Assembly (NCBI RefSeq): GCF_900091605.1
Contig: NZ_FMCQ01000008.1
Coordinates: forward strand, 1-64,000
Source: Micromonospora tulbaghiae
GTDB lineage: Bacteria; Actinomycetota; Actinomycetes; Mycobacteriales; Micromonosporaceae
Direction: 5' to 3'
DNA: 64,000 nt
Each line of letters starts with the position of its first letter. Position 1 is the stretch's first letter. Of this stretch, positions 774 through 59,416 are shown piece after piece. A model generated the notes under the pieces. That model made no database searches. It worked only from the letters and a program-made list of their open reading frames with translations, and was not told the DNA's origin. Position numbers and translations under genes: made by a program.

Positions 774-844
774 GCGATCTTGCACTTGGAGCCCACCGAA
801 TGCCCGGTTGGCGAGGTTTGCGGGGTGCCAAAGTGCAAGATCGC
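774..844. repeat. Family A palindrome, copy 1
   Basis: Perfect 14-bp arms GCGATCTTGCACTT at 774-787 and AAGTGCAAGATCGC at 831-844 flank a 43-nt interior. Its reverse complement aligns along most of its length, interior included, with copy 2 at 921-994. It therefore belongs to the same family in inverted orientation. Confidence 0.85.
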
Positions 845-920
845 CGAGCCCGGAAGGAGACCAGGACGGTCATGACTCGCCGCCCATAAGAGCTGCGACA
901 AAGATCCCCGCAACCCGATC

Positions 921-994
921 GGCGATCTTGGAGTTGTGGCACCTCGCAAACTTCGCGAAAAGGGCAAGGTGGGCGCCACGACTGCAAGATCGGC
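921..994. repeat. Family A palindrome, copy 2
   Basis: Imperfect arms GCGATCTTGGAGTTGTGGC on the left and GCCACGACTGCAAGATCGGC on the right. The interior shares GGCACCTCGCAAAC with the reverse complement of copy 1. Together copies 1 and 2 make a large inverted arrangement spanning 774-994. Confidence 0.75.
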
Positions 995-1065
995 GAGGTC
1001 CACGCTCCAGCGGAGCAGCGACGGGCAGGGCTGAACGGTGAGCGCGTGAGGCGACGCGCAGGCCG

Positions 1066-1153
1066 CGGAGCGCCGGAGCGCCGGAGCGTCGGAGCGTCGG
1101 AGCGTCGGAGCGTCGGAGCGTCGGAGCGTCGGAGCGTCGGAGCGTCGGAGCGA
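1066..1153. repeat. 8-bp microsatellite, 11 tandem units
   Basis: The unit CGGAGCGT is repeated head to tail 11 times over 88 bp. The first two copies read CGGAGCGC and the last CGGAGCGA; the eight in the middle are identical. Such purity points to recent slippage or copy-number change. It is not inside a credible gene. Confidence 0.95.
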
Positions 1154-1172
1154 ACGGATCATGGAAGGAAAG

Positions 1173-1188
1173 GGCCCTCATAAGGGCC
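1173..1188 (-). terminator. Hairpin after the response-regulator gene
   Basis: GGCCCT (1173-1178) pairs with AGGGCC (1183-1188) across a 4-nt loop. Read on the minus strand, the direction of the operon, the hairpin is followed by the pyrimidine tract CTTTCCTTCC. It lies about 55 bp after the stop codon of the upstream regulator gene. Confidence 0.6.
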
Positions 1189-1241
1189 GAAATCTTCCAA
1201 GATCTGCCACGGTCACCCTCGCCGGACGGACCCCGGGCCGG

Positions 1242-1925
1242 TTACGGCTCGAACTTGTAGCCCAGGCCCCGGACCGTGACGATGTAGCGCGGCGCGGACG
1301 GCTCCGGCTCGATCTTGGAGCGCAGCCGCTTCACGTGCACGTCGAGCGTCTTGGTGTCGCCCACATAGTCGGCACCCCAGACCCGGTCGATCAACTGGCC
1401 GCGGGTGAGCACCCGCCCGGCGTTGCGCAGCAGCAGCTCCAGCAGTTCGAACTCCTTGAGCGGGAGTTGCACCCCGGCGCCGCCGACTGTCACCACGTGC
1501 CGTTCGATGTCCATCCGGACCGGGCCGGCGGCGAGCGTCGGCACGCCCGTCTCGTTCGACTCGGCGCTCTGCCGCCGCAGCACCGCCCGGATCCGGGCGA
1601 CCAGTTCGCGCGGCGAGTACGGCTTGGTCACGTAGTCGTCGGCGCCGATCTCCAGGCCGACCACCTTGTCGATCTCGCTGTCCCGCGCCGTGACCATGAT
1701 GATCGGCACGCGCGAGCGCTGGCGGAGCTGCCGGCAGACCTCGGTGCCGGACATCTCCGGCAGCATCAGGTCGAGCAGCACGATGTCGGCGCCGGTCCGG
1801 TCGAACTCGGTGAGGGCGGCGGGGCCCGTCGCGGCGACGGAGACCTCGAACCCCTCCTTGCGGAGCATGTAGGACAGGGCGTCGGAGAACGACTCCTCGT
1901 CCTCGACCACCAGTACGCGGCTCAA
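1242..1925 (-). CDS. regX3: OmpR-family response regulator, RegX3/PhoP type
   Basis: A 227-residue regulator with an N-terminal receiver domain (about 1-115). Visible are acidic residues D9 and E10, phospho-acceptor D52, T79 and K101. A C-terminal winged-helix DNA-binding domain (about 130-225) ends in the typical VRGLGYKFEP. It lies directly downstream of its sensor kinase with a 21-bp gap. In actinomycetes this pair senses phosphate limitation through the Pst/PhoU system and binds GTTCACC direct repeats; such repeats occur three times in this window. The Streptomyces name would be phoP and the mycobacterial name regX3. Family assignment is firm; regulon assignment is inferred from context. 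Confidence 0.93.
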   Translation of the reverse strand: MSRVLVVEDEESFSDALSYMLRKEGFEVSVAATGPAALTEFDRTGADIVLLDLMLPEMSGTEVCRQLRQRSRVPIIMVTARDSEIDKVVGLEIGADDYVTKPYSPRELVARIRAVLRRQSAESNETGVPTLAAGPVRMDIERHVVTVGGAGVQLPLKEFELLELLLRNAGRVLTRGQLIDRVWGADYVGDTKTLDVHVKRLRSKIEPEPSAPRYIVTVRGLGYKFEP

Positions 1926-1946
1926 CGGGTGTTTCCTTTCCTGTGG

Positions 1947-3239
1947 TCAGACCTGCCGGAGCTCGGCCGGGCCGGCCTCGATCCCAGCGGAGGCGAGTGT
2001 CGTCTCCAGGTCGTCCGGGGGGCGTGCGGGCAACCGGAGGGTGAACGTCGACCCTCCACCAAGGGTGCTCGACACTTCCACCCGGCCGCCATGGTTGCTG
2101 GCGATGTGCTTGACGATGGCCAGGCCCAGGCCGGTGCCGCCGGTCGCCCGGGAGCGGGCCTGGTCGGCCCGGTAGAACCGCTCGAAGATCCGGTCGACCT
2201 CGTTCGGGGCGATGCCGATGCCCTGGTCGGCCACGGCGATCTCGACGTGTTCCTCGGTGCCTGTGACTGTCACCCGGACCGTGGTGTCCTCGCCGGAGTA
2301 GGTGATCGCGTTCTCCACCAGGTTCGCGACCGCTGTGGCGAGTTGGCTGTCGCTGCCGTACACGGTCAGGCCCCGCTGCCCGCCGACGGCGATCTCCACC
2401 CGGCGGGCGGTGGCGGCGGTGCGGGTCCGGTCGACGACCTCGGCGAGCACCCAGTCCACCGAGACCGGCTCGGGGGCGGGCTGCGGTTCGGCGCCCTGAA
2501 GACGGGTCAGTTCCAGCAGCTCCTGCACCAGGCGGCCGAGCCGGGTCGACTCGTGCTGGATCCGCTCGGCGAACCGCCGCGCGGCCACCAGGTCCTCGGA
2601 CAGGTCGGGCGCGCCGCCGGCAGCCGGCTCGGTGGCGTCGACGAGCGCCTCGGCGAGCAGTTGCAGCGCGCCGATCGGCGTCTTCAGCTCGTGGCTGACG
2701 TTCGCCACGAAGTCCCGGCGTACCCGCGCGAGACGGTGCGACTCGGTGACGTCCACCGCCTCGATCGAGATGTAGCCGGAGCCCAGTCCCATCGCCCGCA
2801 GGTGTACGCCGAGCGGGTTGTCCCCGCCGCCGTCGCGGCCCCGCGGCAGGTCCAGCTCGATCTCGCGCCGCACGCCCGTGCGGCGGACCTGCCCGGCGAG
2901 GGTACGGATCAACGGGTGCGCCGCGATCGACCCCGGCGTCGCCCCGGTACGGAGCAGACCCATCGCCCGGGCGGCCGGGTTCACCAGCACCGGCACGTCG
3001 TCCGGGCCGAGCACCACCACACCTGCCCGCAGCGAGTCGATCGTCTTGCGGCCGAGCCCGGATAGGCCCCCCTGCTGGTCGTCCGGAATCGTCGTCCTCC
3101 CTGCGTCACGACGGAGGCTCCCGCCGCCCCGCGACGCCCGGCGGCGCCGCCATTCGTCAACGGGTCCGGACAGCAGCGCCCCGGCGACCAGCCCGGTCAC
3201 CAGCGCTCCGGCCACCACGGCGGCCACCGCCCATTCCAC
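1947..3239 (-). CDS. senX3: Phosphate-sensing histidine kinase, SenX3/PhoR type
   Basis: A 430-residue membrane kinase. It has one N-terminal transmembrane helix (about 2-24), a PAS-like region (about 65-165) and a dimerisation/phosphoacceptor helix with H183 in FVANVSHELKTPIG. The HATPase domain carries N (NLVENAITYSGED), G1 (DQGIGIA), F (ERFYRADQARS) and G2 (TGGTGLGLAIVKH) boxes. It lies upstream of and in operon with the response regulator and is divergent from phoU. In this family PhoU and the Pst transporter set kinase activity, and both are encoded in the window. The start is within 200 bp of PHO-box-like repeats, so autoregulation is likely. Confidence 0.93.
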   Translation of the reverse strand: MEWAVAAVVAGALVTGLVAGALLSGPVDEWRRRRASRGGGSLRRDAGRTTIPDDQQGGLSGLGRKTIDSLRAGVVVLGPDDVPVLVNPAARAMGLLRTGATPGSIAAHPLIRTLAGQVRRTGVRREIELDLPRGRDGGGDNPLGVHLRAMGLGSGYISIEAVDVTESHRLARVRRDFVANVSHELKTPIGALQLLAEALVDATEPAAGGAPDLSEDLVAARRFAERIQHESTRLGRLVQELLELTRLQGAEPQPAPEPVSVDWVLAEVVDRTRTAATARRVEIAVGGQRGLTVYGSDSQLATAVANLVENAITYSGEDTTVRVTVTGTEEHVEIAVADQGIGIAPNEVDRIFERFYRADQARSRATGGTGLGLAIVKHIASNHGGRVEVSSTLGGGSTFTLRLPARPPDDLETTLASAGIEAGPAELRQV

Positions 3240-3311
3240 CCGGCGATCGTAGGGTCATTGTTAACCCGGGGATCGGGCACAAAGGGACGAACCACTCTCG
3301 CTTTCGGCAAA

Positions 3312-3350
3312 GTTCACCTGCGGGCCCCGCGTCGTTCATCCGCGTTCACC
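3312..3350 (+). promoter_or_regulatory. PHO-box-like repeats in the senX3/phoU divergent region
   Basis: GTTCACCTGCG at 3312 and GTTCATCCGCG at 3334 are exactly two 11-bp units apart, with a third GTTCACC at 3344. These resemble the 11-bp direct repeats bound by PhoP in Streptomyces. The position between the divergent kinase and phoU genes matches the known bidirectional PHO-box arrangement of phoRP-phoU. Binding is inferred. Confidence 0.7.
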
Positions 3351-3439
3351 CTGGTGCAGGCCGTTCGGCCTAGCGTGGGGCGCGCACCTGCTCCTGCCGT
3401 ACCCCTCGGGGTCGCGGCCACCGACCTCAGGAAGTGACG

Positions 3440-4084
3440 ATGCGCGACGAGTTCCGGGCCGACCTGCAGATTGTCAGCCAGTTGCTGGTGGACATGGCCG
3501 AGGCGGTACGCGCGGCCATGCGGCAGGCCACGAAGGGTCTGCTGACCGCCGACCGGACGGCCGCCGAGACGGTGATCGCGCGGGACGCCGAGATCGACGA
3601 GCTGTACCGGCACGTGGAGGAGCGGGTCTGCGACCTGCTGGCTCGGCAGGCGCCGGTCGCCTCCGACCTGCGCGCCATGATCACCGCCCTGCACGTGGCC
3701 GCCGACCTGGAGCGGATGGGCGACCTGGCCGACCACGTGGCCAAGACGGCGCTGCGGCGGCACCCCTCGCCGGCCGTCCCGGCGGAGCTGCGGCCGGTCT
3801 TCACCGACATGGCCGGGATCGCCGACCGGATGGCCGAGAAGATCGGGTCCGTGCTGGCCAAGCCGGACGCCGACGTGGCTGCCGAACTGGACGGCGACGA
3901 CGACGCGATGGACGACCTGCACAGGAGCCTGTTCGGCGTGCTGCTCGGCGACGACTGGCCGTACGGGGTGGAGACGGCGATCGACGCCACGCTGCTGGGC
4001 CGCTTCTACGAGCGCTTCGCCGACCACGCGGTGAACGCGGGCGAGCACGTGGTCTACCTGATCACCGGTTCGACGTCCGGCTGA
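3440..4084 (+). CDS. phoU: Phosphate signalling protein PhoU
   Basis: 214 residues, starting MRDEFRADLQIVSQLLVDMA; all-helical with two PhoU repeats. The metal-binding signature of the second helix pair is seen in LERMGDLADHVAKTA and again in RFYERFADHAVNAGEHV, the paired E/D-xxR-xxD-H motifs of the family. PhoU couples the Pst transporter to the sensor kinase and represses the Pho response when phosphate is plentiful. The ATG at 3440 was chosen over an upstream GTG at 3434 because AGGAAG sits at proper spacing. It is divergent from senX3 and convergent with gpmA. Confidence 0.95.
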   Translation: MRDEFRADLQIVSQLLVDMAEAVRAAMRQATKGLLTADRTAAETVIARDAEIDELYRHVEERVCDLLARQAPVASDLRAMITALHVAADLERMGDLADHVAKTALRRHPSPAVPAELRPVFTDMAGIADRMAEKIGSVLAKPDADVAAELDGDDDAMDDLHRSLFGVLLGDDWPYGVETAIDATLLGRFYERFADHAVNAGEHVVYLITGSTSG

Positions 4085-4089
4085 GAACC

Positions 4090-4124
4090 GTGGGCGGGGC
4101 CGCCTCGGGGGAGGCCCCGCCCAC
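4090..4124. terminator. Bidirectional hairpin between phoU and gpmA
   Basis: A perfect 12-bp stem, GTGGGCGGGGCC (4090-4101) with GGCCCCGCCCAC (4113-4124) and an 11-nt loop, fills the 46-bp gap between the two convergent genes. There is no T-run on either side, typical of high-GC actinomycete terminators. Confidence 0.8.
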
Positions 4125-4130
4125 GCCGTC

Positions 4131-4898
4131 TCAGCGGCCCTGGTTGGCGACCGCGGCAGCGGCGGCCTTGGCCGCCGCCGGGTCCAGGTACGTCCCGCCG
4201 AGCACCTGCGGGCGCAGGTCGGCGTCCAGGTCGTAGCGCAGCGGGATGCCGGTCGGGATGTTCAGCTTGGCGATCGCCTCGTCGGAGATCTGGTCGAGGT
4301 GCTTGACCAGGGCTCGCAGCGAGTTGCCGTGCGCGGCGACCAGCACGGTACGGCCGGCCAGGATGTCCGGCACGATCGAGTCGTACCAGTAGGGCAGCAT
4401 CCGTTCGACGACGTCCTTCAGGCACTCGGTGCGCGGCATCAGCTCGGTCGGCAGCAGCGCGTACCGGGGGTCGCCGACCTGGGACCACTCGTCCGCGTCG
4501 TCGATCGGCGGCGGCGGCGTGTCGTACGACCGGCGCCAGAGCATGAACTGCTCCTCGCCGTACTCGTCGAGGGTCTGCTTCTTGTCCTTGCCCTGCAGGG
4601 CGCCGTAGTGACGCTCGTTGAGCCGCCACGACCGGCGCACCGCGATCCAGTGCCGGTCGGCGGCGTTCAGCGCCAGCTCGGCGGTGCGGATCGCCCGGCG
4701 CATCAGGCTCGTGTGCACCACGTCCGGCAGCAGGTCGTGCTCGCGCAGCAGCTCGCCGCCGCGCCGCGCCTCGGTCTCCCCCTTGGCGGTCAGGTCGACG
4801 TCGACCCAGCCGGTGAAGAGGTTCTTGGCGTTCCAGTCGCTCTCGCCGTGCCGCAGCAGGACCAGCGTCCCGACGGTGGGCCCCTCGCTCGCAGTCAT
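4131..4898 (-). CDS. gpmA: 2,3-bisphosphoglycerate-dependent phosphoglycerate mutase
   Basis: 255 residues. The catalytic RHGESDWN motif places the phosphohistidine at H17. Also present are the family blocks [18 protein letters not shown] and a second catalytic histidine in [18 protein letters not shown]. It interconverts 3- and 2-phosphoglycerate in glycolysis. The start at 4898 (MTASEGP) is supported by an AGGAT ribosome site and by family length; an ATG three codons earlier lacks spacing for it. Linkage of gpm to senX3-regX3 is also seen in Mycobacterium. Confidence 0.95.
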
Positions 4899-5050
4899 GC
4901 CGATCATCCTGCCGTACCGGCCGGGCGGACACGCGGCGACCTGTGGTGACGACCACCACGTGGAAAACCTGATGACCACGGCTCCGGCCCGGCACTAGGT
5001 TGTAAGGCGTTCTGAACGGGCCGGTCATTACCAAAAACGGGGGCGTCGGG

Positions 5051-6376
5051 ATGCGGACGGTGCGAGGCTGGTTCCAGGACACGGCCGGTGGCCTGCCACG
5101 GACGTTCTGGTACCTCTGGGCCGGCACGCTGATCAACCGGCTCGGCTCGTTCGTCCTGATCTTCCTGGCCATCTACCTGACCCAGGAACGCGGCTTCTCG
5201 GCCTCCCAGGCCGGTCTGGTGATCGGCCTCTGGGGCGCCGGCGGCGCGGTCGGCACCACCATCGGCGGCACCCTGACCGACCGCTGGGGGCGGCGGCCCA
5301 CGCTGCTCACCGCGCACGTCGGCGCCGCGGGCATGATGATCGCGCTGGGCCTCGCCCGTCCGCTGTGGGCGGTCGCAGTGGGCGCGCTGCTGCTCGGCGC
5401 GTTCACCGAGGCGGCCCGGCCCGCCTTCGGCGCGATGATGGTCGACGTGGTGCCGGACAAGGACCGGCTGCGCGCCTTCTCGCTCAACTACTGGGCCATC
5501 AACCTCGGCTTCGCCTGCGCGGCCGTGCTCGCCGGCTTCGCCGCCCAGGGCAGCTACCTGCTGCTGTTCCTGGTGAACGCGACCACCACGCTGGTGACCG
5601 CGCTGATCATCTTTGCCAAGGTCGGCGAGACCCGCGGCCCGGTCACAGTGCTCCCCGCCAAGGGCATGCCGGCGCCGCCCGGCGCGCTGCGCACCATCCT
5701 CGCCGACCGGGTGTTCCTCGGCTTCGTCGCGCTCAACCTGCTCGCCGCGCTGGTGTTCCTCCAGCACATCTCGATGCTGCCGATCGCCATGGGCGACTCC
5801 GGGCTCAGCCCGGCCACCTACGGCTCGGTGATCGCACTCAACGGCGTGCTCATCGTGTTCGGCCAGCTCTTCGTACCCCGGCTCATCAAGGGCCGCAGCC
5901 GCTCGCACGTGCTGGCGCTCGCGTCGCTGGTGATGGGCGCCGGATTCGGGCTCACCGCGCTCGCCGACACGGTCTGGCTCTACGGCCTGACCGTGCTGAT
6001 CTGGACCGTCGGCGAGATGCTCAACTCGCCGTCGAACGCCACCCTGATCGCGGAGCTGTCCCCGGCCGCGCTGCGTGGCCGCTACCAGGGCGTCTTCTCG
6101 CTGTCCTGGCAGCTCGCCGGCGCCGCCGCGCCGATCCTCGGCGGCCTGACGCGCGAGCACGCCGGCAACAGCGCGCTCTGGCTCGGCTGTGCGGGCATCG
6201 GCGTCGTGGCGGCGATCGCCCACCTGATCTCCGGGCCGGCCCGGGAGCGCCGCGCGGTCGCGCTGCGCGCCGTGGGCACGCCCGTCACGCCGGTCACCGC
6301 CACCGCCGCCCCGGCGCCCGAGGCGGCCGAGGCCGCGGCGACCGCACCCGCCGACCCGGTCCGCGCCGGTTCCTGA
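5051..6376 (+). CDS. MFS transporter (DHA1-type), first of a tandem pair
   Basis: 441 residues with about 12 predicted membrane helices. The cytoplasmic loop 2-3 carries the MFS signature GGTLTDRWGRRPTLL, and a long Ala/Pro-rich tail follows the last helix. It resembles H+-coupled drug or metabolite exporters. The substrate cannot be told from sequence. It is a close paralogue of the next gene: both open with a W-x-D-TAGGLP-TFWYLW block. It is divergent from gpmA, with its promoter region in 4899-5050. Confidence 0.88.
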   Translation: MRTVRGWFQDTAGGLPRTFWYLWAGTLINRLGSFVLIFLAIYLTQERGFSASQAGLVIGLWGAGGAVGTTIGGTLTDRWGRRPTLLTAHVGAAGMMIALGLARPLWAVAVGALLLGAFTEAARPAFGAMMVDVVPDKDRLRAFSLNYWAINLGFACAAVLAGFAAQGSYLLLFLVNATTTLVTALIIFAKVGETRGPVTVLPAKGMPAPPGALRTILADRVFLGFVALNLLAALVFLQHISMLPIAMGDSGLSPATYGSVIALNGVLIVFGQLFVPRLIKGRSRSHVLALASLVMGAGFGLTALADTVWLYGLTVLIWTVGEMLNSPSNATLIAELSPAALRGRYQGVFSLSWQLAGAAAPILGGLTREHAGNSALWLGCAGIGVVAAIAHLISGPARERRAVALRAVGTPVTPVTATAAPAPEAAEAAATAPADPVRAGS

Positions 6377-6456
6377 GTACGCCCCGGCGCGACCGCACCG
6401 AGGCGGGTGGATACGGTACGGGACGGAATCGGTAAGGAAACCTTCCTGGAGGACGG

Positions 6457-7707
6457 GTGCGCGGCCTGCGGCGCTGGTGGGACGACACGGCCGGCGGACT
6501 GCCGGCCACGTTCTGGTACCTCTGGTCCGGCCTGCTGATCAACCGGGCCGGCGCGTTCGCGCTGCTGTTCCTGTCGCTCTACCTGACCGCCGCGCGGGGC
6601 GCCCCGCCCTCGCTGGCCGGGTTGGTGGTCGGCGCGTACGGGATCGGTGGCGCGGCCGGGACGCTGCTCGGCGGCGTGCTGGCCGACCGGTGGGGACGGC
6701 GGGCCACCCTGCTCGCCGCCCACCTCGCCGCCGCCGGGCTGATGGCGGCACTGGCGTTCAGCACGCACCTGGCGGTGATCGCCGTACTCGCCACGCTGGT
6801 CGGGGTGGCGCACTCGATGCCCAGCCCGGCGTTCGTGGCCGCCATCGTGGACGTGGTGCCGGAGGCCCGCCGCTCCCGCGCGTTCAACCTCCAGTTCTGG
6901 GCGTTCAACCTGGGCATGGCGGTGGCCTCGCTGCTGGCCGGTCTGCTCGCCGAGGCCAGCTTCGTGGCGCTGTTCCTGGTCGACGCCGCTGCCACGCTGA
7001 CGGCGGCGGTGGTGATCGCGCTGAAGGTGCCGGAGACGCTCACCCGGCGGCCCGCGCTCACGCCGCGGGCGGTGGCAGGACGCCGTCCCGGGCTGCACAC
7101 CGCGCTCACCGACCGCACGTTCCTGGTGTTCGTCGCGCTGACGTTTCTGCTGGCCGTGCTGACCATGCAGACCTCCACGATCATGCCGCTGGCGATGCGC
7201 GCGGACGGTCTGCGCCCGTCGGCGTACGGGCTGGTGGTGGCGCTCGGCGGCGCGCTGATCGTAGTCGGGCAGCTGTTCGTGCCCCGGCTCATCGAGCCGT
7301 ACCGCAAGTCGACCGTGCTGGCCGTCTCCACCGGCCTGATGGCGCTCGGGTTCGGCGCGCTCACAGTCGCCGACGGGTTGCCGCTCTACCTCGGTGCCGC
7401 GGTGGTCTGGACGATCGGGCAGATGCTCGCCGCGCCGCCGAACGCACAGATCAACGCGGACCTCGCGCCGCCCGAACTGCGCGCCCGATACCAGTCGGTG
7501 TTCTACCTGACGTTCCCGGCCGCGTCGTTCGTGGCGCCGGCGCTCGGCGGGCTCAGCCTGGAACGCCTGGGCGAGCGGCACTGGCTGGTGGTGGGCGCAC
7601 TCGGCCTGGTGGCCGCGGCCGGGCATCTGCTCGCCGGGCCGCGCCGGGAGCGGCGGGTGGCCGCGCTGCGGGCTGCGGCCGCGGAACCGGTCAAGTCCGC
7701 CCGCTGA
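6457..7707 (+). CDS. MFS transporter (DHA1-type), second of a tandem pair
   Basis: 416 residues, GTG start preceded by GGAGGACGG. About 12 membrane helices; loop 2-3 motif GGVLADRWGRRATLL; conserved MADG/LRPSAYGLV block matching GDSGLSPATYGSV in the upstream paralogue. The pair is colinear with an 80-bp gap, so it is probably one transcription unit arising by tandem duplication. It ends before a strong hairpin. Export of small molecules is the family role; substrate unknown. Confidence 0.88.
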   Translation: MRGLRRWWDDTAGGLPATFWYLWSGLLINRAGAFALLFLSLYLTAARGAPPSLAGLVVGAYGIGGAAGTLLGGVLADRWGRRATLLAAHLAAAGLMAALAFSTHLAVIAVLATLVGVAHSMPSPAFVAAIVDVVPEARRSRAFNLQFWAFNLGMAVASLLAGLLAEASFVALFLVDAAATLTAAVVIALKVPETLTRRPALTPRAVAGRRPGLHTALTDRTFLVFVALTFLLAVLTMQTSTIMPLAMRADGLRPSAYGLVVALGGALIVVGQLFVPRLIEPYRKSTVLAVSTGLMALGFGALTVADGLPLYLGAAVVWTIGQMLAAPPNAQINADLAPPELRARYQSVFYLTFPAASFVAPALGGLSLERLGERHWLVVGALGLVAAAGHLLAGPRRERRVAALRAAAAEPVKSAR

Positions 7708-7722
7708 GGGGAGACAACGGCA

Positions 7723-7758
7723 GAGCGCCCACCCCGACCCCCGTCGAGATGGGCGCTC
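7723..7758 (+). terminator. Hairpin after the MFS pair
   Basis: GAGCGCCCA (7723-7731) pairs with TGGGCGCTC (7750-7758) across an 18-nt loop, 16 bp after the stop codon. It likely ends the tandem MFS transcript. Confidence 0.7.
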
Positions 7759-13059: not shown

Positions 13060-13080
13060 CCCGCCCGCCGCCCGCCGCCC

Positions 13081-13154
13081 GCCGATCTTGCAGTTGCAGC
13101 CCTCACATAGCGCGCGGACCAGACATTCCGGCGGCCGCAACTGCAAGATCGCCG
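13081..13154. repeat. Family A palindrome, copy 3
   Basis: Left arm GCCGATCTTGCAGTTGC (13081-13097) matches right arm GCAACTGCAAGATCGCC (13137-13153) over GATCTTGCAGTTGC. It sits between the convergent methyltransferase and murB genes, 21 bp after the former, where it could also form a transcript-ending hairpin. Confidence 0.85.
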
Positions 13155-15208: not shown

Positions 15209-15267
15209 GAGAGCGCTCTCTTGACAAGGTCCACGCCCCTCCCCCACGCTGTCGTGAGAGCGCTCTC
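15209..15267 (+). promoter_or_regulatory. Promoter with two LacI-type operators
   Basis: Two identical perfect palindromes GAGAGCGCTCTC lie at 15209-15220 and 15256-15267. A consensus -35 hexamer TTGACA (15221-15226) abuts the first. A weak -10 (around 15245-15250) precedes the second. This layout blocks polymerase from both sides. The palindrome resembles operators of LacI-family sugar repressors such as CebR, and a LacI-family gene ends the operon. No second copy was seen elsewhere in the window. Confidence 0.88.
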
Positions 15268-30190: not shown

Positions 30191-30263
30191 TCGATCTTGC
30201 ACTTGCGGCCCTCGGCACGCCTGGGATGCGCGTTCTGCCAGGGCGGTAAGTGCAAGATCGCCG
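30191..30263. repeat. Family A palindrome, copy 4
   Basis: Left arm CGATCTTGCACTT (30192-30204) and right arm AAGTGCAAGATCG (30248-30260). The interior GGCCCTCGGCACGCC ... GTTCTGCCAGGGCGG is nearly repeated in copy 5 (GGTCCCCGGCACGCC ... GTTTGCCGGGGCGG), so the whole element is conserved, not only its arms. It lies between convergent genes. Confidence 0.85.
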
Positions 30264-33907: not shown

Positions 33908-34753
33908 GTGGGTACGACACGGGTGGCGGTACTCGGCCGAGGGCTCGTACCGGCGGGTGAGCCGGTGCTGCGCGGCGACGACCGGGGCGTCCTGCACGGC
34001 GACGGCCTGTTCGAGACGCTGCACCTGCGCGACGGCCGCCCCTGGTTGCGCGAGGCCCACCTGACCCGGCTGCGGGCCGGCGCGGCGGCGATCGACATGC
34101 GGCTGCCACCGGACGCCGCGCTGGTCGAGCTGATGGACGCGGTCTGCGCCGACTGGCCCGCGCACACCGAGGGCGCGCTGCGGCTGATCTGCACCCGGGG
34201 ACCGGAGGGTGGTGGGCCGCCCACGGTGTACGCCACGCTCGGCGAGGTGCCGCCGGCCGCCCGCCTGGCCCGGCGGGACGGGGTGACTGTGGCCACGCTG
34301 CCGCTCGGGGTGGCCGCCCGGTCCCGCCCGCAGCTGGAGTGGCTGCCGAGCGGCGTGAAGTCCACCTCGTACGCGCTCAGCACCGCTGCCCGGCGGTGGG
34401 CGCAGCGGACCGGCGTGGACGACGTGCTCTGGGTCTCGACCGACGGCTACGTGCTGGAGGCGCCCACCGCCAACGTGGTGTGGCTGAGCGGCGGGACGCT
34501 CCGCACGGTCCCGGCGGCACAGACCGGAATCCTGCCCGGCGTGACCGCGGCTCATCTGCTGGAACGGGCGGCCGAGCTGAACCTGACCGCGGCCGAGCGC
34601 CTGCCCACCGTGGCCGACCTGCACGAGGCCGAAGGCGTCTGGCTGACCAGCTCCCTACGCGGCGTCGCTGAGATCACGGCCTTGAACGGAACCCCCCGTC
34701 CGAGTTCCCCGCTGACCACCCGCCTACAAACCCTCCTGAACTTCCCCCGTTGA
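33908..34753 (+). CDS. Aminotransferase class IV (aminodeoxychorismate lyase-like)
   Basis: 281 residues, fold type IV PLP enzyme. Residues typical of the family: GDGLFETLHLRDGRPWLREAHL near the N-terminus, PLP-lysine in LPSGVKSTSYALS (near residue 153), Glu in VLEAPTANVVWL. Likely 4-amino-4-deoxychorismate lyase (PabC) or a D-amino acid transferase. In Mycobacterium Rv0812 is the matching neighbour of the FABP-like gene. GTG start; divergent from the Fur gene. Confidence 0.85.
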   Translation: MGTTRVAVLGRGLVPAGEPVLRGDDRGVLHGDGLFETLHLRDGRPWLREAHLTRLRAGAAAIDMRLPPDAALVELMDAVCADWPAHTEGALRLICTRGPEGGGPPTVYATLGEVPPAARLARRDGVTVATLPLGVAARSRPQLEWLPSGVKSTSYALSTAARRWAQRTGVDDVLWVSTDGYVLEAPTANVVWLSGGTLRTVPAAQTGILPGVTAAHLLERAAELNLTAAERLPTVADLHEAEGVWLTSSLRGVAEITALNGTPRPSSPLTTRLQTLLNFPR

Positions 34754-34808
34754 CCATGAAGTTGGCGGCGCCGGTTGCCCGATTTGTCGCCGCCAACTTC
34801 ATGATCGC
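34750..34808. repeat. Family B palindrome, copy 2
   Basis: Arms GACCATGAAGTTGGCGGCG (34752-34770) and CGCCGCCAACTTCATGATC (34788-34806), one mismatch in 19 bp, 17-nt loop CCGGTTGCCCGATTTGT. The loop matches the reverse-complemented loop of copy 1 (GCCGGTGCCCGTTTTGT) at most positions. The left arm begins in the stop codon of the aminotransferase gene, between convergent genes. Confidence 0.85.
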
Positions 34809-50635: not shown

Positions 50636-50655
50636 ACCCCGGAGGTACCACCACC

Positions 50656-52618: not shown

Positions 52619-52638
52619 GCCCAGGAGCGTAGGAGGCA

Positions 52639-52661
52639 ATTAGGAACATCCCGTTCCTAAT
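52639..52661. promoter_or_regulatory. 23-bp operator between epoxide hydrolase and WYL regulator
   Basis: Perfect inverted repeat ATTAGGAAC (52639-52647) / GTTCCTAAT (52653-52661) with a 5-nt centre. It is AT-rich against the background and lies in the 63-bp gap between two divergent genes, overlapping where a promoter must lie. It is probably the binding site of the adjacent regulator. Confidence 0.85.
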
Positions 52662-52681
52662 GAACTGGCAGGATTCGAGAA

Positions 52682-53638: not shown

Positions 53639-53640
53639 CG

Positions 53641-54468
53641 TCAGGACAGACGGAAGCGGGGGGCCTCGACGTCGGAGAGGTCGAGGTGCGGCATGACGGG
53701 GACGCCGGGGTCGCGCTTCACCGCCGCGCCGGCCACACCGCCCAGGTCGCCGGCGGCGGCCACCTCGGCCAGCGTGACCATTGTGGGCGGCAGCATCGTC
53801 AGCTCGCCGGCCTCCGCCCGGGCCAGGGCGTCCGCCGGGCGCAGCCACAGCGTGTGGTCGGCCTCCCCGGAGACGTCCCGGGTCCGCTGCCCCTCGGGCA
53901 GCAGGGCGACGAAGAAGTACGTGTCGAAGCGGCGCGGCTCGAACTCCGGGGTGATCCACCGGCTCCACGGCAGCAGCAGGTCGGATCGCAGCGTCAGACC
54001 CCGACCGGCCAGCAGGTCCGCAAAGCCGACCCGCCGTCCCTCCAGATCCTGCCGGGCCGCCTCCCAGTCGTCGCCGCTCACGTCGCCGACGACCGTGTCG
54101 GGGTCCGGGCCGGCGAGCAGCACGCCCGCCTCCTCGAAGACCTCGCGGGCGGCGGCGCACACCACCGCCTGCGCAGCGGCCGGGTCGAGCCGGAGCCGCT
54201 CCCCCCACTCCGCCGGGCCCGGGCCGGCCCAGCCGAGGTGCGCCTCCGAGTCGGAGCGGTCCACCCCGCCGCCCGGGAAGGCGTACATGCCGCCGAAGGT
54301 CATGGCCGCGACCCGGCGGATCATGTAGACCTCGAACCCGTCGCCGGCCGGGCGGAGCAACAGCACCGTGGCGGCGACCCGGGGCACGGCCGGTACGGCG
54401 CCCTCGGCCCGGAATCGGCGGGCGTGCTCCACCAGGGCGGGGGGTGCGGCGAAGCCGTCGATCGTCAT
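53641..54468 (-). CDS. NUDIX hydrolase
   Basis: 275 residues. The Nudix box is recognisable: GGGVDRSDSE precedes CAAAREVFEEAGVLLAG, with the catalytic REVFEEAG. The N-terminal substrate region VPRVAATVLLLRPAGDGFEVYMIRR fits the NUDT7/8 or CoA-like class. Substrate not deduced. Convergent with the WYL regulator at 2 bp. Confidence 0.9.
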   Translation of the reverse strand: MTIDGFAAPPALVEHARRFRAEGAVPAVPRVAATVLLLRPAGDGFEVYMIRRVAAMTFGGMYAFPGGGVDRSDSEAHLGWAGPGPAEWGERLRLDPAAAQAVVCAAAREVFEEAGVLLAGPDPDTVVGDVSGDDWEAARQDLEGRRVGFADLLAGRGLTLRSDLLLPWSRWITPEFEPRRFDTYFFVALLPEGQRTRDVSGEADHTLWLRPADALARAEAGELTMLPPTMVTLAEVAAAGDLGGVAGAAVKRDPGVPVMPHLDLSDVEAPRFRLS

Positions 54469-54898
54469 GCGCCGAGCCTAGTTCCCGCCTGGCAGTCCGG
54501 TCGGCGACGGTTCCCGTCGACTCACGGGACACACGTGCTCCGAGCGCGGGCCGCCCGGCCACGGTGCGTAGTTCTCCCCGTCCGCCCAAAGGCATACCTC
54601 CGTGCCCTTTGCTCTGCAGCCGAATCCGCAATGGCAACCGTCCGTGTGCGGTGCGCATGAGGCTGCAGAGCAAAGGGGACGAGAGGGCATCGGCCCAGCC
54701 GAGCGGGCTCGGGCTTATGTCCGTAAGAGCGCCTTTGGGCGCCCGGTCCTGGCGAAGAGAGGAGCAATCGCCGTCACGCTGCGCTATCTTCACGCTCCGT
54801 ATTCGATCGACGTCACATGGCCCTTCGGGGCGCAGCGTCGGAAGCCGCAGGAAGCGCGGGACTGCGTCCGTCGGTCGCGCCTGGCAGGGTCGTGACCC
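54469..54898. other. Intergenic region between Nudix and DinB genes
   Basis: A 430-bp divergent intergenic region with no credible gene. It holds the perfect 17-bp inverted repeat at 54605-54677 (listed separately). The pieces GCGCCTTTGGGCGC (54729-54742, self-complementary core) and AGCCGAGCGGGCTCGG (54698-54713) also show dyad symmetry. Promoters of both neighbours must lie in it. Confidence 0.6.
54605..54677. repeat. Family C: perfect 17-bp inverted repeat
   Basis: CCCTTTGCTCTGCAGCC (54605-54621) and GGCTGCAGAGCAAAGGG (54661-54677) are exact complements around a 39-nt interior. It is the same size class as families A and B. No second copy is in the window, so whether it is dispersed in the genome is unknown. 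Confidence 0.85.
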
Positions 54899-55486
54899 GT
54901 GATCGACGACTTCGCGAAGGAATACCTGCACAACGACCTGCGCCAGATCCGCGAGGCGATGCTGTGGAAGCTCGACGGGCTGTCCGAATACGACGTACGC
55001 CGTCCTCTGACCGCGTCCGGCACCAACCTGCTCGGCCTGGTCAAGCACCTGTCGTTCGGGGAGGCCCGGTACTTCGGCGAGGTGTTCGGCAGGCCGTTCC
55101 CGGAACCGCTGCCCCGGTGGGACGACCCGGATCCGGACGGCATCGACATGTGGGCGAGTGAGCACGAGACCCGCGAGGAGGTGATCGGCCGCTACCGGCG
55201 GGCGGCCGAGCACGCGGACGCGACGATCGAGGCCCTCGCCATCGACGCGCCCGGCCACGTGCCGTGGTGGCCCCGTCCGGACGTCAAGTTGTTCAACGTC
55301 CTGGTCCACGTGCTGACCGAGACCGGCCGGCACGCGGGGCACGCCGACATCCTGCGCGAGCAGCTCGACGGCTCGACCGGGACCTGGGCCGAGTACGCAT
55401 ACCTGGAACCCGACCAGCCGACGCTGACGGCGCGGCGGGCGATGATCGAGCGGGCCGCCCGCGCCGCCGCCGACGCCCGCGGCTGA
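54899..55486 (+). CDS. DinB-family protein (DUF664)
   Basis: 195 residues, four-helix bundle. DinB/DUF664 landmarks: LRQIREAMLWKLDGLSEYDVRRP, LVKHLSFGEARYFGEVFG with the first His, and LVHVLTETGRHAGHADILREQLDG with the second and third metal histidines. These enzymes are often thiol-dependent (mycothiol or bacillithiol) transferases; a mycothiol link would fit this genome. GTG start. Confidence 0.85.
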   Translation: MIDDFAKEYLHNDLRQIREAMLWKLDGLSEYDVRRPLTASGTNLLGLVKHLSFGEARYFGEVFGRPFPEPLPRWDDPDPDGIDMWASEHETREEVIGRYRRAAEHADATIEALAIDAPGHVPWWPRPDVKLFNVLVHVLTETGRHAGHADILREQLDGSTGTWAEYAYLEPDQPTLTARRAMIERAARAAADARG

Positions 55487-55547
55487 GCCGTCCCGACCGG
55501 TGGATCACCCTGCCGGCCCCGGAGCGGTACGGGATAGCGTGCCGGGC

Positions 55548-56516
55548 ATGACGCGTTGGGGAATCCTGGCCACCGGAAACATCGCCGCCCGCTTCGCCGA
55601 GGATCTGCGGCTGGTGCCGGGCGCCGAACTGGTGGCGGTCGGCTCGCGTACCCGGGAGAGCGCCGAGCTGTTCGCGCGCCGGCACGACGTGCCGCGGGCG
55701 TACGCCTCGTGGGCGGAACTGGCCGCGGACCCGGACCTGGACGCGATCTACGTGGCCACCCCGCACGCCGCCCACCACGAGGCGGCGCTCGCGTGCCTGG
55801 CCGGCGGCAAGGCCGTGCTGGTGGAGAAGCCCTGCACGCTGGACCTGCCGACCACCACCGAGCTGGTGGAGACGGCCCGCGACCGGGGTCTGTTCCTCAT
55901 GGAGGCCATGTGGATGCGGACCAACCCGCTGATCCTGCGGGTGCTGGAGCTGATCCGGGACGGCGCGATCGGTGAGGTGACGCACGTACGGGCGGACTTC
56001 GGCGTGGCCGGCCCGTTCCCGCCGGAGCACCGGATGCGGGCCCGCACGCTCGGTGGCGGCGCGCTGCTCGACCTCGGCGTCTACCCGCTGAGCCTGGCCC
56101 ACCTGGTGCTCGGCGTGCCGCAGCACGTGCAGGCGTGGGCCAAGCTGACCCCGGAGGCGGTGGACGAGAACACCGGCATGGCGCTCGGCTGGGACTCCGG
56201 CGCGGTGGCGACGCTCAGCTGCGGCATGGTCGGCGCGACAGCGATCACCGCTTCGATCACCGGTACGACCGGCCGGATCGACCTGCCCGAGCTGTTCTTC
56301 CGGCCCGCGCACGTGGTGCTGCACCGGGCCGGCGCCGAACCGGAAACGATCCCGGCGGACCTGACCGGCGGCGGTTACCAGTACGAGGCGATCGAGGTGC
56401 AGCGCTGCCTGGCGGCCGGGCTGACCGAGAGCCCGCTGGTGCCGCACGCCGCGACGCTCGAGGTGATGGGCCTGATCGACGACATCAAGGCCCGGATCGG
56501 CGTCTCCTACGCGTGA
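55548..56516 (+). CDS. Gfo/Idh/MocA family oxidoreductase
   Basis: 322 residues. Rossmann N-terminus GILATGNIAARFAEDL, then the EKPCTLDL motif (conserved EKP) near residue 95 and a C-terminal alpha/beta domain. This is the dehydrogenase class acting on sugars or inositol-like substrates with NAD(P). The second region WMRTNPLILRVLELI is typical of a dihydrodiol-dehydrogenase-like clade. A strong hairpin follows the stop. Confidence 0.88.
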   Translation: MTRWGILATGNIAARFAEDLRLVPGAELVAVGSRTRESAELFARRHDVPRAYASWAELAADPDLDAIYVATPHAAHHEAALACLAGGKAVLVEKPCTLDLPTTTELVETARDRGLFLMEAMWMRTNPLILRVLELIRDGAIGEVTHVRADFGVAGPFPPEHRMRARTLGGGALLDLGVYPLSLAHLVLGVPQHVQAWAKLTPEAVDENTGMALGWDSGAVATLSCGMVGATAITASITGTTGRIDLPELFFRPAHVVLHRAGAEPETIPADLTGGGYQYEAIEVQRCLAAGLTESPLVPHAATLEVMGLIDDIKARIGVSYA

Positions 56517-56546
56517 GGGGTTCCCCGCCACGGCGGGGAACCCCTC
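56515..56546. terminator. Bidirectional hairpin between oxidoreductase and pit genes
   Basis: GAGGGGTTCCCCGCC (56515-56529) and GGCGGGGAACCCCTC (56532-56546) form a perfect 15-bp stem with a 2-nt centre, so the loop would open by a few pairs. It begins inside the TGA stop codon and lies between convergent genes. Confidence 0.88.
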
Positions 56547-56564
56547 GACGTCACCGCGCGGAGA

Positions 56565-57569
56565 TCAGAACAGGGGCCGGACCAGCAGGTACGCGAGGCA
56601 GGCGATCGCGGCGGCGGCCGGGAACGTGATGATCCAGGCGATCACGATGTTGCCCGCCACGTTCCAGCGCACCGCGGAGAGCCGTTTCGTGGATCCCACA
56701 CCCATGATCGCCGAGGTGATCGTGTGCGTGGTGGAGATCGGCGCCTTCAGCACCAGCGCGTTGAAGTAGAGCACCGCGCTGGCCACGGTCTCGGCCGCGA
56801 AGCCCTCCGCGGGGCCGAGGTCGATGATCTTCCGCCCGAGCGTACGGATGATCCGCCAGCCGCCCGCGTACGTGCCGGCCGCCAGCATCGCGGCGGAGGT
56901 CCAGAAGACCCAGCCCGGGATGTGCGTCTTGCTCTCCTGGAAACCGCCGGTGTAGAGCGCGAGCACGATGATGCCCATGGTCTTCGCGGCGTCCTGCATG
57001 CCGTGACCGACCGACATGGCGGCGGCGGACGCGGTCTGCGCCCACCGGAAGCCACGGCTGAGCTTGCCCGGCTGGCCCTTCCGGAACAGCCACATGATCG
57101 CCAGCATCACCAGGAAGCCGAGGATCAGGCCGACCACCGGCGAGAGCACCATCGGGACGAGGACCTTCTCGATGATGGTGCCCCACTGGACGATGCCGTC
57201 GGCGGCGAACAGGGTCGCGCCGACCAGGCCACCGAAGAGGGCGTGCGAGGACGAGGACGGCAGGCCGAAGTACCAGGTGATCAGGTTCCAGATGATCGCG
57301 CCGAGCACGCCGGCGAAGACCACGCCGAGGCTCTCCACCCCGGTCGGCAACGTCACCAGCCCGTCGCCGACCGTCTTGGCCACCCCGGCGCCGAAGTGCG
57401 CGCCGACGAAGTTGCCGACGGCGGCCAGCGCGAGCGCGATCCGGGGGGTCAGCGCCCGGGTCGAGATGCTGGTGGCGATCGCGTTGGCCGCGTCATGGAA
57501 GCCGTTCGTGTAGTCGAACGCCATGGCGACCGCGATCACCGCCAGCACGGCGATGAGTTCGGGTGTCAC
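56565..57569 (-). CDS. pitA: PiT-family inorganic phosphate transporter
   Basis: 334 residues, about ten helices. The duplicated PiT signature is seen as FDYTNGFHDAANAIATSISTRAL near the N-terminus and APISTTHTITSAIMGVGSTKRLSAV near the C-terminus. Low-affinity phosphate/metal symporter. GTG 57569 with an AAGGAG site; 4 bp after the DUF47 gene stop. PHO boxes lie upstream of the pair. Confidence 0.95.
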   Translation of the reverse strand: MTPELIAVLAVIAVAMAFDYTNGFHDAANAIATSISTRALTPRIALALAAVGNFVGAHFGAGVAKTVGDGLVTLPTGVESLGVVFAGVLGAIIWNLITWYFGLPSSSSHALFGGLVGATLFAADGIVQWGTIIEKVLVPMVLSPVVGLILGFLVMLAIMWLFRKGQPGKLSRGFRWAQTASAAAMSVGHGMQDAAKTMGIIVLALYTGGFQESKTHIPGWVFWTSAAMLAAGTYAGGWRIIRTLGRKIIDLGPAEGFAAETVASAVLYFNALVLKAPISTTHTITSAIMGVGSTKRLSAVRWNVAGNIVIAWIITFPAAAAIACLAYLLVRPLF

Positions 57570-57573
57570 TGGA

Positions 57574-58200
57574 TCAGGACTCCTTGACCGCGATGGTCTC
57601 GACGGTGTTGGCCACGTGCTCGAAGGCGTCGCAGGCGGCCTCCAGCTCGTCGGCCACCTCCTTCATCTTCAGCACCGTGAGCGCGTCGTACTCACCGGAG
57701 AAGAGGCGGACCAGCAGCATCCGGTACGCCTGGTCGCCGTCGTTCTCGAGCCGGTTGCACTCGATCCAGTAGTCCTCGAGGTCCTTCATCGACTTCAGCC
57801 GGGGCATCGCCTCGGCGGTGAGCTTGGCCTGCAGGTCCAGCACGTTAACCAGCTCGTGCAGCTCGCGCGGAAGCGACGGGAGCTTGGTCAGGCCGTACAG
57901 GTAGAGCAGGTTGCCGACCGCCTCCAGGTGGTCCATCACGTCGTCGAGCAGCGAGCCGAGCCGGTAGATGTCCTCCCGGTCGAACGGCGTGATGAAGGTG
58001 GAGTTGATCTTCTTGTACAGCTCGTGCGTGATCTGGTCGCTGTCGTGCTCGATGTCGGTCAGCCGCTCGCTGATCGACTGCACGTCGGCACCGGGCAGGC
58101 CCAGCTCGTTGAGCAGGTCGGTCCCCTTCACCAGGTTCTGCGCGGCCCTGGTGAAGAGCTCGTAGAAAGCGCCCTCGGTGGGACGGAAGGAAAACTTCAC
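57574..58200 (-). CDS. DUF47 (PhoU-like) partner of the Pit transporter
   Basis: 208 residues, all helical. Family residues: ERLTDIEHDSDQITHELYKKINSTFITPFDREDIYRL (repeat 1) and a second PhoU-like repeat ending ACDAFEHVANTVETIAVK. DUF47 proteins are usually co-encoded with Pit transporters and thought to regulate them. GTG 58200. First gene of the pair; PHO-box repeats lie 118-150 bp upstream. Confidence 0.93.
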   Translation of the reverse strand: MKFSFRPTEGAFYELFTRAAQNLVKGTDLLNELGLPGADVQSISERLTDIEHDSDQITHELYKKINSTFITPFDREDIYRLGSLLDDVMDHLEAVGNLLYLYGLTKLPSLPRELHELVNVLDLQAKLTAEAMPRLKSMKDLEDYWIECNRLENDGDQAYRMLLVRLFSGEYDALTVLKMKEVADELEAACDAFEHVANTVETIAVKES

Positions 58201-58317
58201 AGCACGGACCTCGTCGTGTCGGTGGAAGGGTGGCCGTCGCCCCCCGGGCGTCTGCTCTGCGCATGCTAGGGACCGCGCCGAACCTACTTTCGATCGGCCC
58301 ACCCCTGGTCAGGCCCG

Positions 58318-58350
58318 ATTCACCGCTCGTTCACCTTCCGTTCACCTGAT
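58318..58350 (+). promoter_or_regulatory. Triple 11-bp PHO-box repeat upstream of DUF47-pitA
   Basis: ATTCACCGCTC (58318-58328), GTTCACCTTCC (58329-58339) and GTTCACCTGAT (58340-58350) follow in exact 11-bp phase. They are on the plus strand, opposite to the operon they probably control, unlike the pstS site. The last copy touches the stop codon of ppk2. Confidence 0.82.
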
Positions 58351-59300
58351 CACTCACGGCGCTGGCTCCGTAACCGGTCACGCTCCCGTTCGACGTCGAA
58401 ATCGGCAGGCGGATACCCCAGATCCAACCCGTCGAACGTCTCCCGCAGCAGGTGGGCGACCGCCCAGTCCCGGTACCACTTGCGGTCCGCCGGCACCACG
58501 AACCAGGGCGCGGCGTCCGTGCCGCAACGCTCGAAGGCCTCGGCGTACGCGGCCTGATAGTCGTCCCAACGTGCCCGGGTGTCCAGATCGCTCGGGTTGT
58601 ACTTCCAGAACTTCGCCGGGTCGGTGAGCCGCTCCATCAGCCGCTCGCCCTGCTCGGCGTACGAGATGTGCAGCATGACCTTCACCACTGTGACCGCCTG
58701 CTCGGTCAGTTCCCGCTCGAAGTCGTTGATGATCGCGTACCGGGACCGCCAGGTCGCCTCATCGACCAGCCCTTCGACGCGAGCGATGAGCACGTCCTCG
58801 TAGTGCGAGCGGTTGAACACGCCGACGTACCCGGGTGGCGGCAGCGCCCGGCGCACCCGCCACAGGAAGTCGTGCCGCAACTCCTCCTCGGTGGGCGGCC
58901 CGAACGAGCGGATGTGCAGCCCGAGCGGGTTCATCGCGCCCGCCACCCGCTTGACCGTGCCGTCCTTGCCGCCGCAGTCCATCGCCTGGAGCACCAGCAG
59001 CACCCGGCGCGGCCGGTCGCCGTCCAGTCCGGCGTCCGCCTGCGCCGGCGCGCTGGTGGCGCTGCCCGGCCCGGCGGCGCCCTGCGCCGAGGCGTACAGC
59101 ATCTCCTGCTGCCGCCCCAGTCCCGCGCCGATCAGCTCGACCTGGGCCCGCGCCCACTCCTTGCGCGCGGGCCCGCGCCCGGCCGCCGCCGGCAGCCCTG
59201 GCGTCGACCGGGGGTCGATCGCCTCCAGGTCCACCGGCCCCGGCGCCACCCGGAGCAACTCCCGCATCGGCCCGCCCTCGGGCCCCACCACCTCACTCAT
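58350..59300 (-). CDS. ppk2: PPK2-family polyphosphate kinase / phosphotransferase
   Basis: 316 residues. Walker A LQAMDCGGKDGTVKR and Walker B VFNRSHYEDVLIARV, lid region KNPS-like in KFWKYNPSDLDTRARWDDYQAAY. Uses polyphosphate to phosphorylate nucleotides or the reverse. ATG 59300 chosen (MSEVVG); ATG 59267 is possible. A PHO box at its 3' end and Pit/DUF47 downstream tie it to phosphate storage. Confidence 0.9.
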   Translation of the reverse strand: MSEVVGPEGGPMRELLRVAPGPVDLEAIDPRSTPGLPAAAGRGPARKEWARAQVELIGAGLGRQQEMLYASAQGAAGPGSATSAPAQADAGLDGDRPRRVLLVLQAMDCGGKDGTVKRVAGAMNPLGLHIRSFGPPTEEELRHDFLWRVRRALPPPGYVGVFNRSHYEDVLIARVEGLVDEATWRSRYAIINDFERELTEQAVTVVKVMLHISYAEQGERLMERLTDPAKFWKYNPSDLDTRARWDDYQAAYAEAFERCGTDAAPWFVVPADRKWYRDWAVAHLLRETFDGLDLGYPPADFDVERERDRLRSQRRE

Positions 59301-59346
59301 CCCCCGATCCTCACCCCCGGAGCCCTTCCCCGCTCGCCCCACTCCG

Positions 59347-59416
59347 CCGATCTTGCGGTTGCGGTCCCCGGCACGCCCGGAAAGCACCGTTTGCCGGGGC
59401 GGCAACTGCAAGATCA
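59347..59416. repeat. Family A palindrome, copy 5
   Basis: Arms GATCTTGCGGTTGC (59349-59362) and GCAACTGCAAGATC (59402-59415), one mismatch in 14. The interior matches copy 4 closely. It lies between divergent ppk2 and sigma-factor genes, so unlike copies 3 and 4 it cannot serve as a terminator for convergent genes. Confidence 0.85.

Follow-up and report, generated by a model that had tools for sequence, protein, structure and literature searches.

Five palindromes of about 70 bp with similar arms are scattered between genes over a stretch of 64,000 nucleotides from Micromonospora tulbaghiae, a member of a genus important for natural products (contig NZ_FMCQ01000008.1, positions 1 to 64,000; this whole stretch is hereafter called the window), and they raise the question of what such repeats are and what spreads and keeps them. 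A preliminary description of the window suggested a mobile element akin to repetitive extragenic palindromic (REP) sequences or to miniature inverted-repeat transposable elements (MITEs), or else a recognised structured site. Our analysis leads us, with confidence that falls just short of even, to view the palindromes as a mobile superfamily resembling REPINs (REP doublets forming hairpins), which would spread without a REP-associated tyrosine transposase (RAYT), would have half-sites recognised as duplex DNA by a putative protein, and would be kept behind genes, probably as boundaries or terminators.

A genome-wide superfamily with rigid spacing

All five palindromes were found where they had been reported when their ends were re-read from GATC to GATC, and a scan of the window for the arm motif with at most two mismatches gave 14 matches against 1.93 expected (100 shuffles, the largest value being 8). 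As a list the five are correct and incomplete, since the window also contains two 55-bp siblings (table 1). The genome (6,485,599 bases in 19 contigs; labelled G000 in our set) has 111 matches to the exact arm and none to the reversed-pattern control, and 61 copies of the strict full element that we call family A (control 0). Two sibling families, B and C, with GATCATG/GATCAAG arms, account for 100 strict matches (control 0), and a pattern unifying the families has 169 (control 0), corresponding to about one site per 38 kb of the 6.49 Mb. With many more than five copies both here and in relatives, the palindromes are not independent hairpins, and the dispersed intergenic REP/MITE-like family anticipated earlier is borne out by the genome-wide copies and the carriers among relatives.

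The elements appear to be built to one plan, with two inverted half-sites beginning with GATC, a spacer of nearly fixed length (total about 55 or 67-69 bp) and a loose, asymmetric centre. Among the 71 family A copies read in loci of this genome, 53 measure 67 bp, 17 measure 68 bp and one measures 69 bp (a chance match in a coding region, L096 241, was left out of the copy sets of this genome); the 50 B/C matches listed comprise 46 of 55 bp, three of 56 bp and one of 68 bp. A shorter spacer range (25-38), used as a spacing control, matched nothing in this genome and 3 of the 121 genomes of the genus (one per species), so the spacing is rigid. Arms, too, keep company: 95 of the 98 distinct exact A arms in this genome's loci, counted among the matches listed (100 of the 111 exact-arm matches), have a partner in an element of 67-69 bp. 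Three are unpaired, and at one of these (L014 1501) a B element starts 8 bp behind the surviving arm. Nearly all copies read end in GATC, and they have terminal inverted repeats, as MITEs do.

Some arrangements depart from this simple picture. One convergent intergenic space (L096 1098-1627) accommodates four B/C elements together with a damaged A element. Yet another palindrome of the GATC kind, GATCTTGGTAGGAAA...TTTCCTACCAAGATC, measures about 50 bp and stands near gene ends in relatives and in part in this genome (at L247, L255 and L258, with variants at L241 and a portion at L084), and GATC-ended palindromes of other lengths occupy orthologous places in relatives.

Distribution among genomes

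Among the matches listed from database records, strict family A elements come from Micromonospora, Virgisporangium, Dactylosporangium, Verrucosispora and an unclassified strain of Micromonosporaceae. Within the genus, family A is present in 80 of the 121 genomes (0-83 copies each) and B/C in 114 (0-130 copies each), both being absent from six genomes of 5.1-5.9 Mb (G015, G043, G062, G074, G114 and G115). A wider set of 300 genomes from 44 genera of Micromonosporaceae yielded matches in 162 genomes and 23 genera, some single hits being coding-like; outside the family, 9 of 394 genomes gave one match each, by eye unlike the arms or coding-like. The occurrence is also patchy within genera. In the genus g264, the genome G727 has 118 matches, G713 has 8 and all other listed genomes have 0-1, and G727 would thus be a good candidate genome for a recently acquired trans-acting gene.

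An origin from phages or plasmids was considered and dropped. The unifying pattern had at least 121 matches in 120 loci of viral contigs, in none of which both arms were of the A, B or C type (the phages collection lay outside this search), and a BLAST search of plasmids with a B copy returned 16 partial matches, the best with an E value of 0.05.

Independent arms and a loosely conserved centre

A structured hairpin site, one of the possibilities raised in the preliminary description, would be expected to keep its arms complementary; the arm variants show no mutual compensation, and duplex half-sites fit better. In 221 pooled copies from many genomes (copies with more than three arm mismatches excluded), the C/G alternatives at arm position 10 vary nearly independently on the two sides, with 126 copies matching against 115 expected. 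Within the single genome of M. tulbaghiae the independence is clearer, pairing being seen in 29 of 60 family A copies at position 10 (28.7 expected), in 12 of 32 family B copies at position 14 (16.0 expected) and 20 of 32 at position 9 (18.8 expected), and in 8 of 17 family C copies at position 15 (8.8 expected); one 68-bp match of the 50 listed was left out for B/C. Among about 40 positions tested there are weak signals in the opposite direction, at positions 17 (p 0.04) and 14 (p 0.06) of the A copies and position 13 of the B copies of this genome (p 0.06), and at position 13 in G031 (p 0.02). Covariation at position 17 of the pooled set was rejected as a signal, for beyond the value just given for this genome it is absent within G031 and G034 and otherwise amounts to species-level GTC or GCC variants.

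Alignment-wide measures point the same way. When 52 copies of 67 bp from this genome are aligned without gaps, 70.1% of the cells are paired against 72.9% after shuffling (500 of 500 shuffles equalled or exceeded the observed value), and RNAalifold keeps nine pairs in the 67-bp alignment, none of them compensated. Given the independent arms and the lack of covariation, RNA structure was rejected as the conserved feature, and an Rfam search of the window found nothing at the gathering threshold, with five sub-threshold matches in 600-1200, four of them to miRNA models. Because the arms vary independently and without base-pair covariation, they seem to be read singly, most simply as duplex DNA by a protein complex of two-fold symmetry.

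On its outer side the half-site is conserved to about position -4, and on its inner side as far as positions 16-19. Flank positions 1-3 pair above chance (pooled A z 5.4, B/C z 4.9, A of this genome z 1.9), and when each position is taken singly, A copies of other genomes show a clear excess and B a weak one at -1/+1. An extended palindrome in the flanks was dropped as an idea, since complementarity there is near the level of swapped flanks. In register, positions 11-30 behave like swapped flanks (A of this genome z -0.2, B/C z -0.3; pooled A z 2.4), and if offsets of at most 4 are allowed, the highest complementarity over 25 nt lies slightly above them (z 2.1, 1.9 and 4.9, respectively), a signal that is thus mainly an effect of composition.

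The interiors had been described as conserved, which is true of the arms and positions 16-19 and does not extend to the centre beyond a loose asymmetric pattern. For family A the asymmetry is clear: the log-likelihood of 114 copies is -4671, against a best value of -5062 in 20 simulations from a symmetric profile. Many B and some C centres contain one of four cores at a fixed position, namely GACAAANSGG, GRAGATC, a CGACACGCC-like motif or AGCGCT, and when seven genomes are pooled, ATG and AAG arms have three of the four in common. A core is present in 27 of the 32 B copies of this genome and in 3 of its 17 C copies; these classes are descriptive, the core patterns having been set after viewing the sequences, from partial lists, and the tally omits elements of other lengths and later list entries for G031, G034, G116, G620 and G676. 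The AGCGCT core presumably resembles operators of the LacI family. The same core, which is the centre of some 55-bp elements, is also seen at window positions 15209-15267 in two inverted GAGAGCGCTCTC motifs, which we likewise take to be similar to a LacI-family operator.

Placement behind genes and the switch in flank composition

In keeping with the intergenic placement first reported, none of the five noted copies overlaps a gene called by our codon-usage script. Most copies in the genomes are found a short way behind gene 3' ends. Among 228 distinct A copies, 102 lie between convergent, 88 between tandem and 14 between divergent genes, the neighbour being missing for 24, and the median distance to the nearest gene 3' end is 33 bp (n=204), whereas comparison intergenic spaces of at least 70 bp, taken from loci chosen for carrying elements, divide into 58 convergent, 141 tandem and 86 divergent. 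The B and C copies read (n=57) are placed like A.

The GC skew changes sign at the elements. Read along the + strand, the left flank is C-rich and the right flank G-rich, at about -0.4/+0.4 over some 45 bp, for both A and B/C, and the pattern is independent of gene orientation, being the same in the 14 divergent contexts; at gene 3' ends that lack an element, the values are 0.39 for C and 0.35 for G (n=244). In tandem contexts, the direction of the element is random with respect to transcription (45 of 82 scored). Such a skew could reflect Rho-loading stretches, C-rich on each of the two strands, or a local mutational process that is strand-asymmetric.

Constraint in place, turnover and possible copying

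Paired copies were compared between this genome and G021, the matched regions of which are 90.8% identical on average. Of 29 pairs, 23 were used, the six dropped comprising four that were not the same locus and two with a centre identity of 0.55 or less; a pair with different arm types, L310/L017, was kept. The half-sites change less than their surroundings: divergence amounts to 11.8% (38/322) in the inner half-site, 21.7% (145/669) in the centre and 33.4% in the 30-bp flanks, and to 3.1% (17/552) in the arms, a figure biased by the use of the arms to find the copies. The search patterns placed no demand on positions 16-19, and the 16 pairs of 67 bp differ there in 2 of 128 comparisons, as opposed to 20 of 96 at positions 13-15. 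The ortholog of window copy 3 in M. humi (L129) has an unlike centre.

Elements are gained and lost on the time scale of the genus, as presence varies at two sites. The site of window copy 4 was followed through 50 genomes (the 30 best matches and 20 hand-chosen ones): 11 carry the element (clipped by a boundary in G144), G026 has a remnant and 38 have none. Several of the latter have only 3-43 bp between the genes, and others have different palindromes. In G098, whose flanks are 93-94% identical, the gap measures 43 bp and includes one GATC, with C-rich sequence on one side of it and G-rich sequence on the other. The other palindromes at this site, in L286 and L305 (imperfect in L304), are of the types ATACCTCAGAGGCATA...TATGCCTCTGAGGTAT and CATGACTGTCAGGCATA...TATGCCTGACAGTCATG. 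At a second site, site A, viewed in the best 30 of 160 genomes, the element stands behind the first gene in six genomes of the window's clade, M. tulbaghiae included (its presence in G021 was taken from the pattern search and the paired-locus comparison), and 22 of the 24 remaining genomes have, by eye, an ordinary GC-rich terminator-like hairpin at most about 60 nt from the stop codon.

Traces of copying are few. The centre identity of the four best partners is 0.897 in A, 0.974 in B and 0.724 in C, against simulated values of 0.761, 0.744 and 0.672, and the A value goes back to two pairs, L066/L079 and L020/L064. In L020/L064 the similarity covers 82 bp, that is the element plus 9 and 6 bp; in the B pair L014/L103, 92 bp are shared around the 55-bp element, and the similarity stops within about 30 bp. 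Such near-copies, together with the patchy distribution between and within genera, provide modest evidence that elements may be copied to unlinked loci.

The transposase

No RAYT gene had been seen in the window, and this absence extends to the whole genome, where the Y1_Tnp profile (PF01797) has 0 matches and 0 candidates; transposases of other kinds were not searched for in the window. Mobilisation by a RAYT in this genome was rejected on the basis of this result. Across the genus, PF01797 has matches in 29 of the 121 genomes, and family A is present in 17 of these 29 against 63 of the other 92. Two Y1_Tnp-rich genomes, G048 and G057 (8 and 7 matches, respectively), have 0 A elements, but 39 and 46 B/C matches, B/C being unsuited to such a test of association because they are too widespread in the genus.

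Possible explanations

Under the explanation that we tentatively favour, a trans-acting protein other than a RAYT would recognise each half-site in duplex DNA and copy the element to new intergenic places. Copies landing just behind stop codons would survive and stay, probably since transcription arriving from either side would be stopped or obstructed there by the bound protein or by a hairpin. A more elaborate form of this idea, which we consider doubtful though worth formulating, envisages a combinatorial repeat class, in which arm modules (TTGCASTT, ATGARGTT, AAGGAGTT and others), each combined at fixed positions with one of the 6-10-bp cores listed above, would be read as duplex by a putative protein system of Micromonosporaceae. 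This system would spread the elements and also serve, at gene 3' ends, as a bidirectional transcription roadblock or boundary, with a strand-skew switch left around every site.

A number of observations weigh against the favoured explanation. The missing trans-acting gene is its principal gap: no such gene was found beside the elements, whose recurrent neighbours are by eye ordinary metabolic genes (overlapping loci of this genome being tallied repeatedly), and no autonomous long element was found either. The B/C elements of the Y1_Tnp-rich genomes G048 and G057 also count here. A stable RNA hairpin is predicted for each of the six window copies that were folded (z -5.4 to -9.1), which leaves room for a hairpin function, even though they fold well because palindromes must. 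Arm conservation relative to G021 is partly built in by the search patterns. Orthologous copies are mostly common to the two genomes, and movement must therefore be slow. As for copying, family C centres show little excess identity, the A pair L066/L079 results from the duplication of a gene (1,062 bp at 95%), the B pair L096/L079 shares 147 bp, reaching beyond the element, the identical B pair L013/L066 sits in duplicated surroundings, and shared centre cores raise the identity value of B. There is no clear target-site duplication outside GATC (none of at least 4 bp above chance, with a slight excess of 2-3 bp), and the bias to 3' ends could be mere survivorship.

Among the alternatives, bidirectional terminators or hairpins at mRNA ends, which would act as RNA and owe their repetition to the spread of a good terminator, are unlikely yet deserve serious attention. 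Placement at gene 3' ends, strong predicted hairpins, C-rich and G-poor DNA ahead of the element on both strands and, at site A, an element where other genomes have an ordinary terminator-like hairpin would all suit them, but neither arms nor centre show compensatory change, the rigid spacer length is needless for a loop, orientation is random along transcription, and divergent contexts have the identical skew. Inverted uptake sequences of Neisseria and Pasteurellaceae serve as terminators and are similar in being a conserved short motif in inverted pairs behind genes; unlike these, the exact A arms are nearly all paired at one spacing, and there is no class of single motifs. It is rather improbable that the elements are instead sites at which a lineage-specific DNA-binding protein would dock on the duplex to organise or insulate the chromosome, their dispersal being incidental. 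The independent arms, rigid spacing, constraint in place, density of sites and retention of partners would agree with this possibility. A copy range from none to 83 (A) or 130 (B/C) between congeners is, however, odd for a needed function, and the several arm families and cores would demand several specificities. Noc and SlmA have chromosomal sites of this general kind, tens of sequence-specific palindromes per chromosome; the present site differs in being much longer and bipartite, intergenic and very variable in copy number.

Transposition in the usual sense would offer two further explanations. We consider it improbable that the elements are MITEs of a DDE transposon with terminal inverted repeats, the terminal GATC being the target duplication. 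The likeness to MITEs as usually defined (see also PMC2817692 and PMC3116915) lies in being non-coding and dispersed with terminal inverted repeats; independent variation suits such repeats, the GATC found at each end forms a direct repeat, and G098 has a single GATC at the copy-4 site, with a C-rich and a G-rich flank. Set against this are the lack of a clear duplication beyond GATC (apart from the slight 2-3-bp excess mentioned above), of a clean empty-site pair and of any autonomous relative seen, the small size of about 55-69 bp only, and asymmetric cores at fixed positions, which are unusual for MITEs. Classic REPs or REPINs moved by a RAYT are highly improbable. The plan of two conserved inverted ends and a variable spacer of fixed length (PMC3116915), the 3'-side location (PMC3733652), and dispersed, intergenic occurrence in tens to hundreds of copies, patchy between species (PMC3116915, PMC2817692, PMC3733652), are shared with REPINs and bacterial interspersed mosaic elements built of REPs (REP-BIMEs). 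REPs are described in this literature as tagged with GTAG or CGTC, as preserving their palindrome through complementary changes and as being adjacent to RAYT genes. The present elements, by contrast, have ends of GATC plus about 8 bp instead of a tagged hairpin, no compensatory mutations, cores common to several arm families and a GC-skew switch in the flanks; this genome has no Y1_Tnp match, the 121 genomes show no positive association, and G048 and G057 have B/C without A.

The copies in the window and their surroundings

The elements of the window are listed in table 1. Pairs of a 67-bp and a 68-bp element resembling copies 1 and 2 also occur at L066, L079 and L013, and in G021 at L321 and L330. 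At five loci, that of copies 1 and 2 included, 27-192 bp separate a member of the 68-bp subfamily, which has GATCTTGGAGTT arms, from a 67-bp copy, and at a sixth locus a member is 388 bp from another copy.

Table 1. Palindromic elements in the window. The strand of family A copies is the direction of the asymmetric centre.
Feature	Position	Strand	Remarks
Family B copy, 55 bp, GATCATGAGGTT arms	693-747	.	28 bp ahead of copy 1
Family A copy 1, 67 bp	776-842	+	Paired type with 68-bp subfamily; 81 bp ahead of copy 2
Example half-site GATCTTGCASTT	776-787	+	Most constrained unit
Copy 2, hybrid, 68 bp	924-991	.	Arms: GATCTTGGAGTT of the 68-bp subfamily on the left, family A (one mismatch) on the right
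Family A copy 3, 67 bp	13084-13150	-	Flanked by convergent genes
Family A copy 4, 67 bp	30193-30259	+	Flanked by convergent genes; site followed through 50 genomes
Family B copy, 55 bp	34752-34806	.	Left end GACC, not GATC; between genes called as convergent; first 2 bases overlap left gene end
Family A copy 5, 67 bp	59349-59415	+	Neighbours divergent according to the codon-usage gene caller

Ahead of the first elements, positions 1-241 and on to about 674 hold a gene start, by eye that of a small exported protein. The paralogues of this gene, at L066 and L079, adjoin a similar pair of 67-bp and 68-bp elements; related DNA is also found in L164, L057 and L125, and both the window and the contig start within this gene repeat. 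Tandem repeats of the GGAGCGTC type lie 3' of copy 2 (about 1075-1150), and comparable short tandem repeats stand beside copies in L006 and L072. A separate long palindrome at 54601-54681, whose arms contain CCTTTGCTCTGCAGCC, is distinct from the GATC families.

Significance

Our literature search found no description of these elements in Micromonospora, most subscription journals being outside its scope, and a genus-wide genome paper, in the part available, uses the word 'palindromic' only for CRISPR (PMC5765111). Dispersed palindromes of bacteria are usually explained by RAYT transposases and hairpins. The superfamily combines the plan and location of REPINs with the absence of compensation and, in the M. 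tulbaghiae genome, of the enzyme, and it thus constitutes a natural test of what else spreads or maintains palindromes. If a protein does bind the arms, it would have a chromosome-wide set of about 170 sites behind genes, and the system could show how GC-rich actinobacteria insulate convergent genes.

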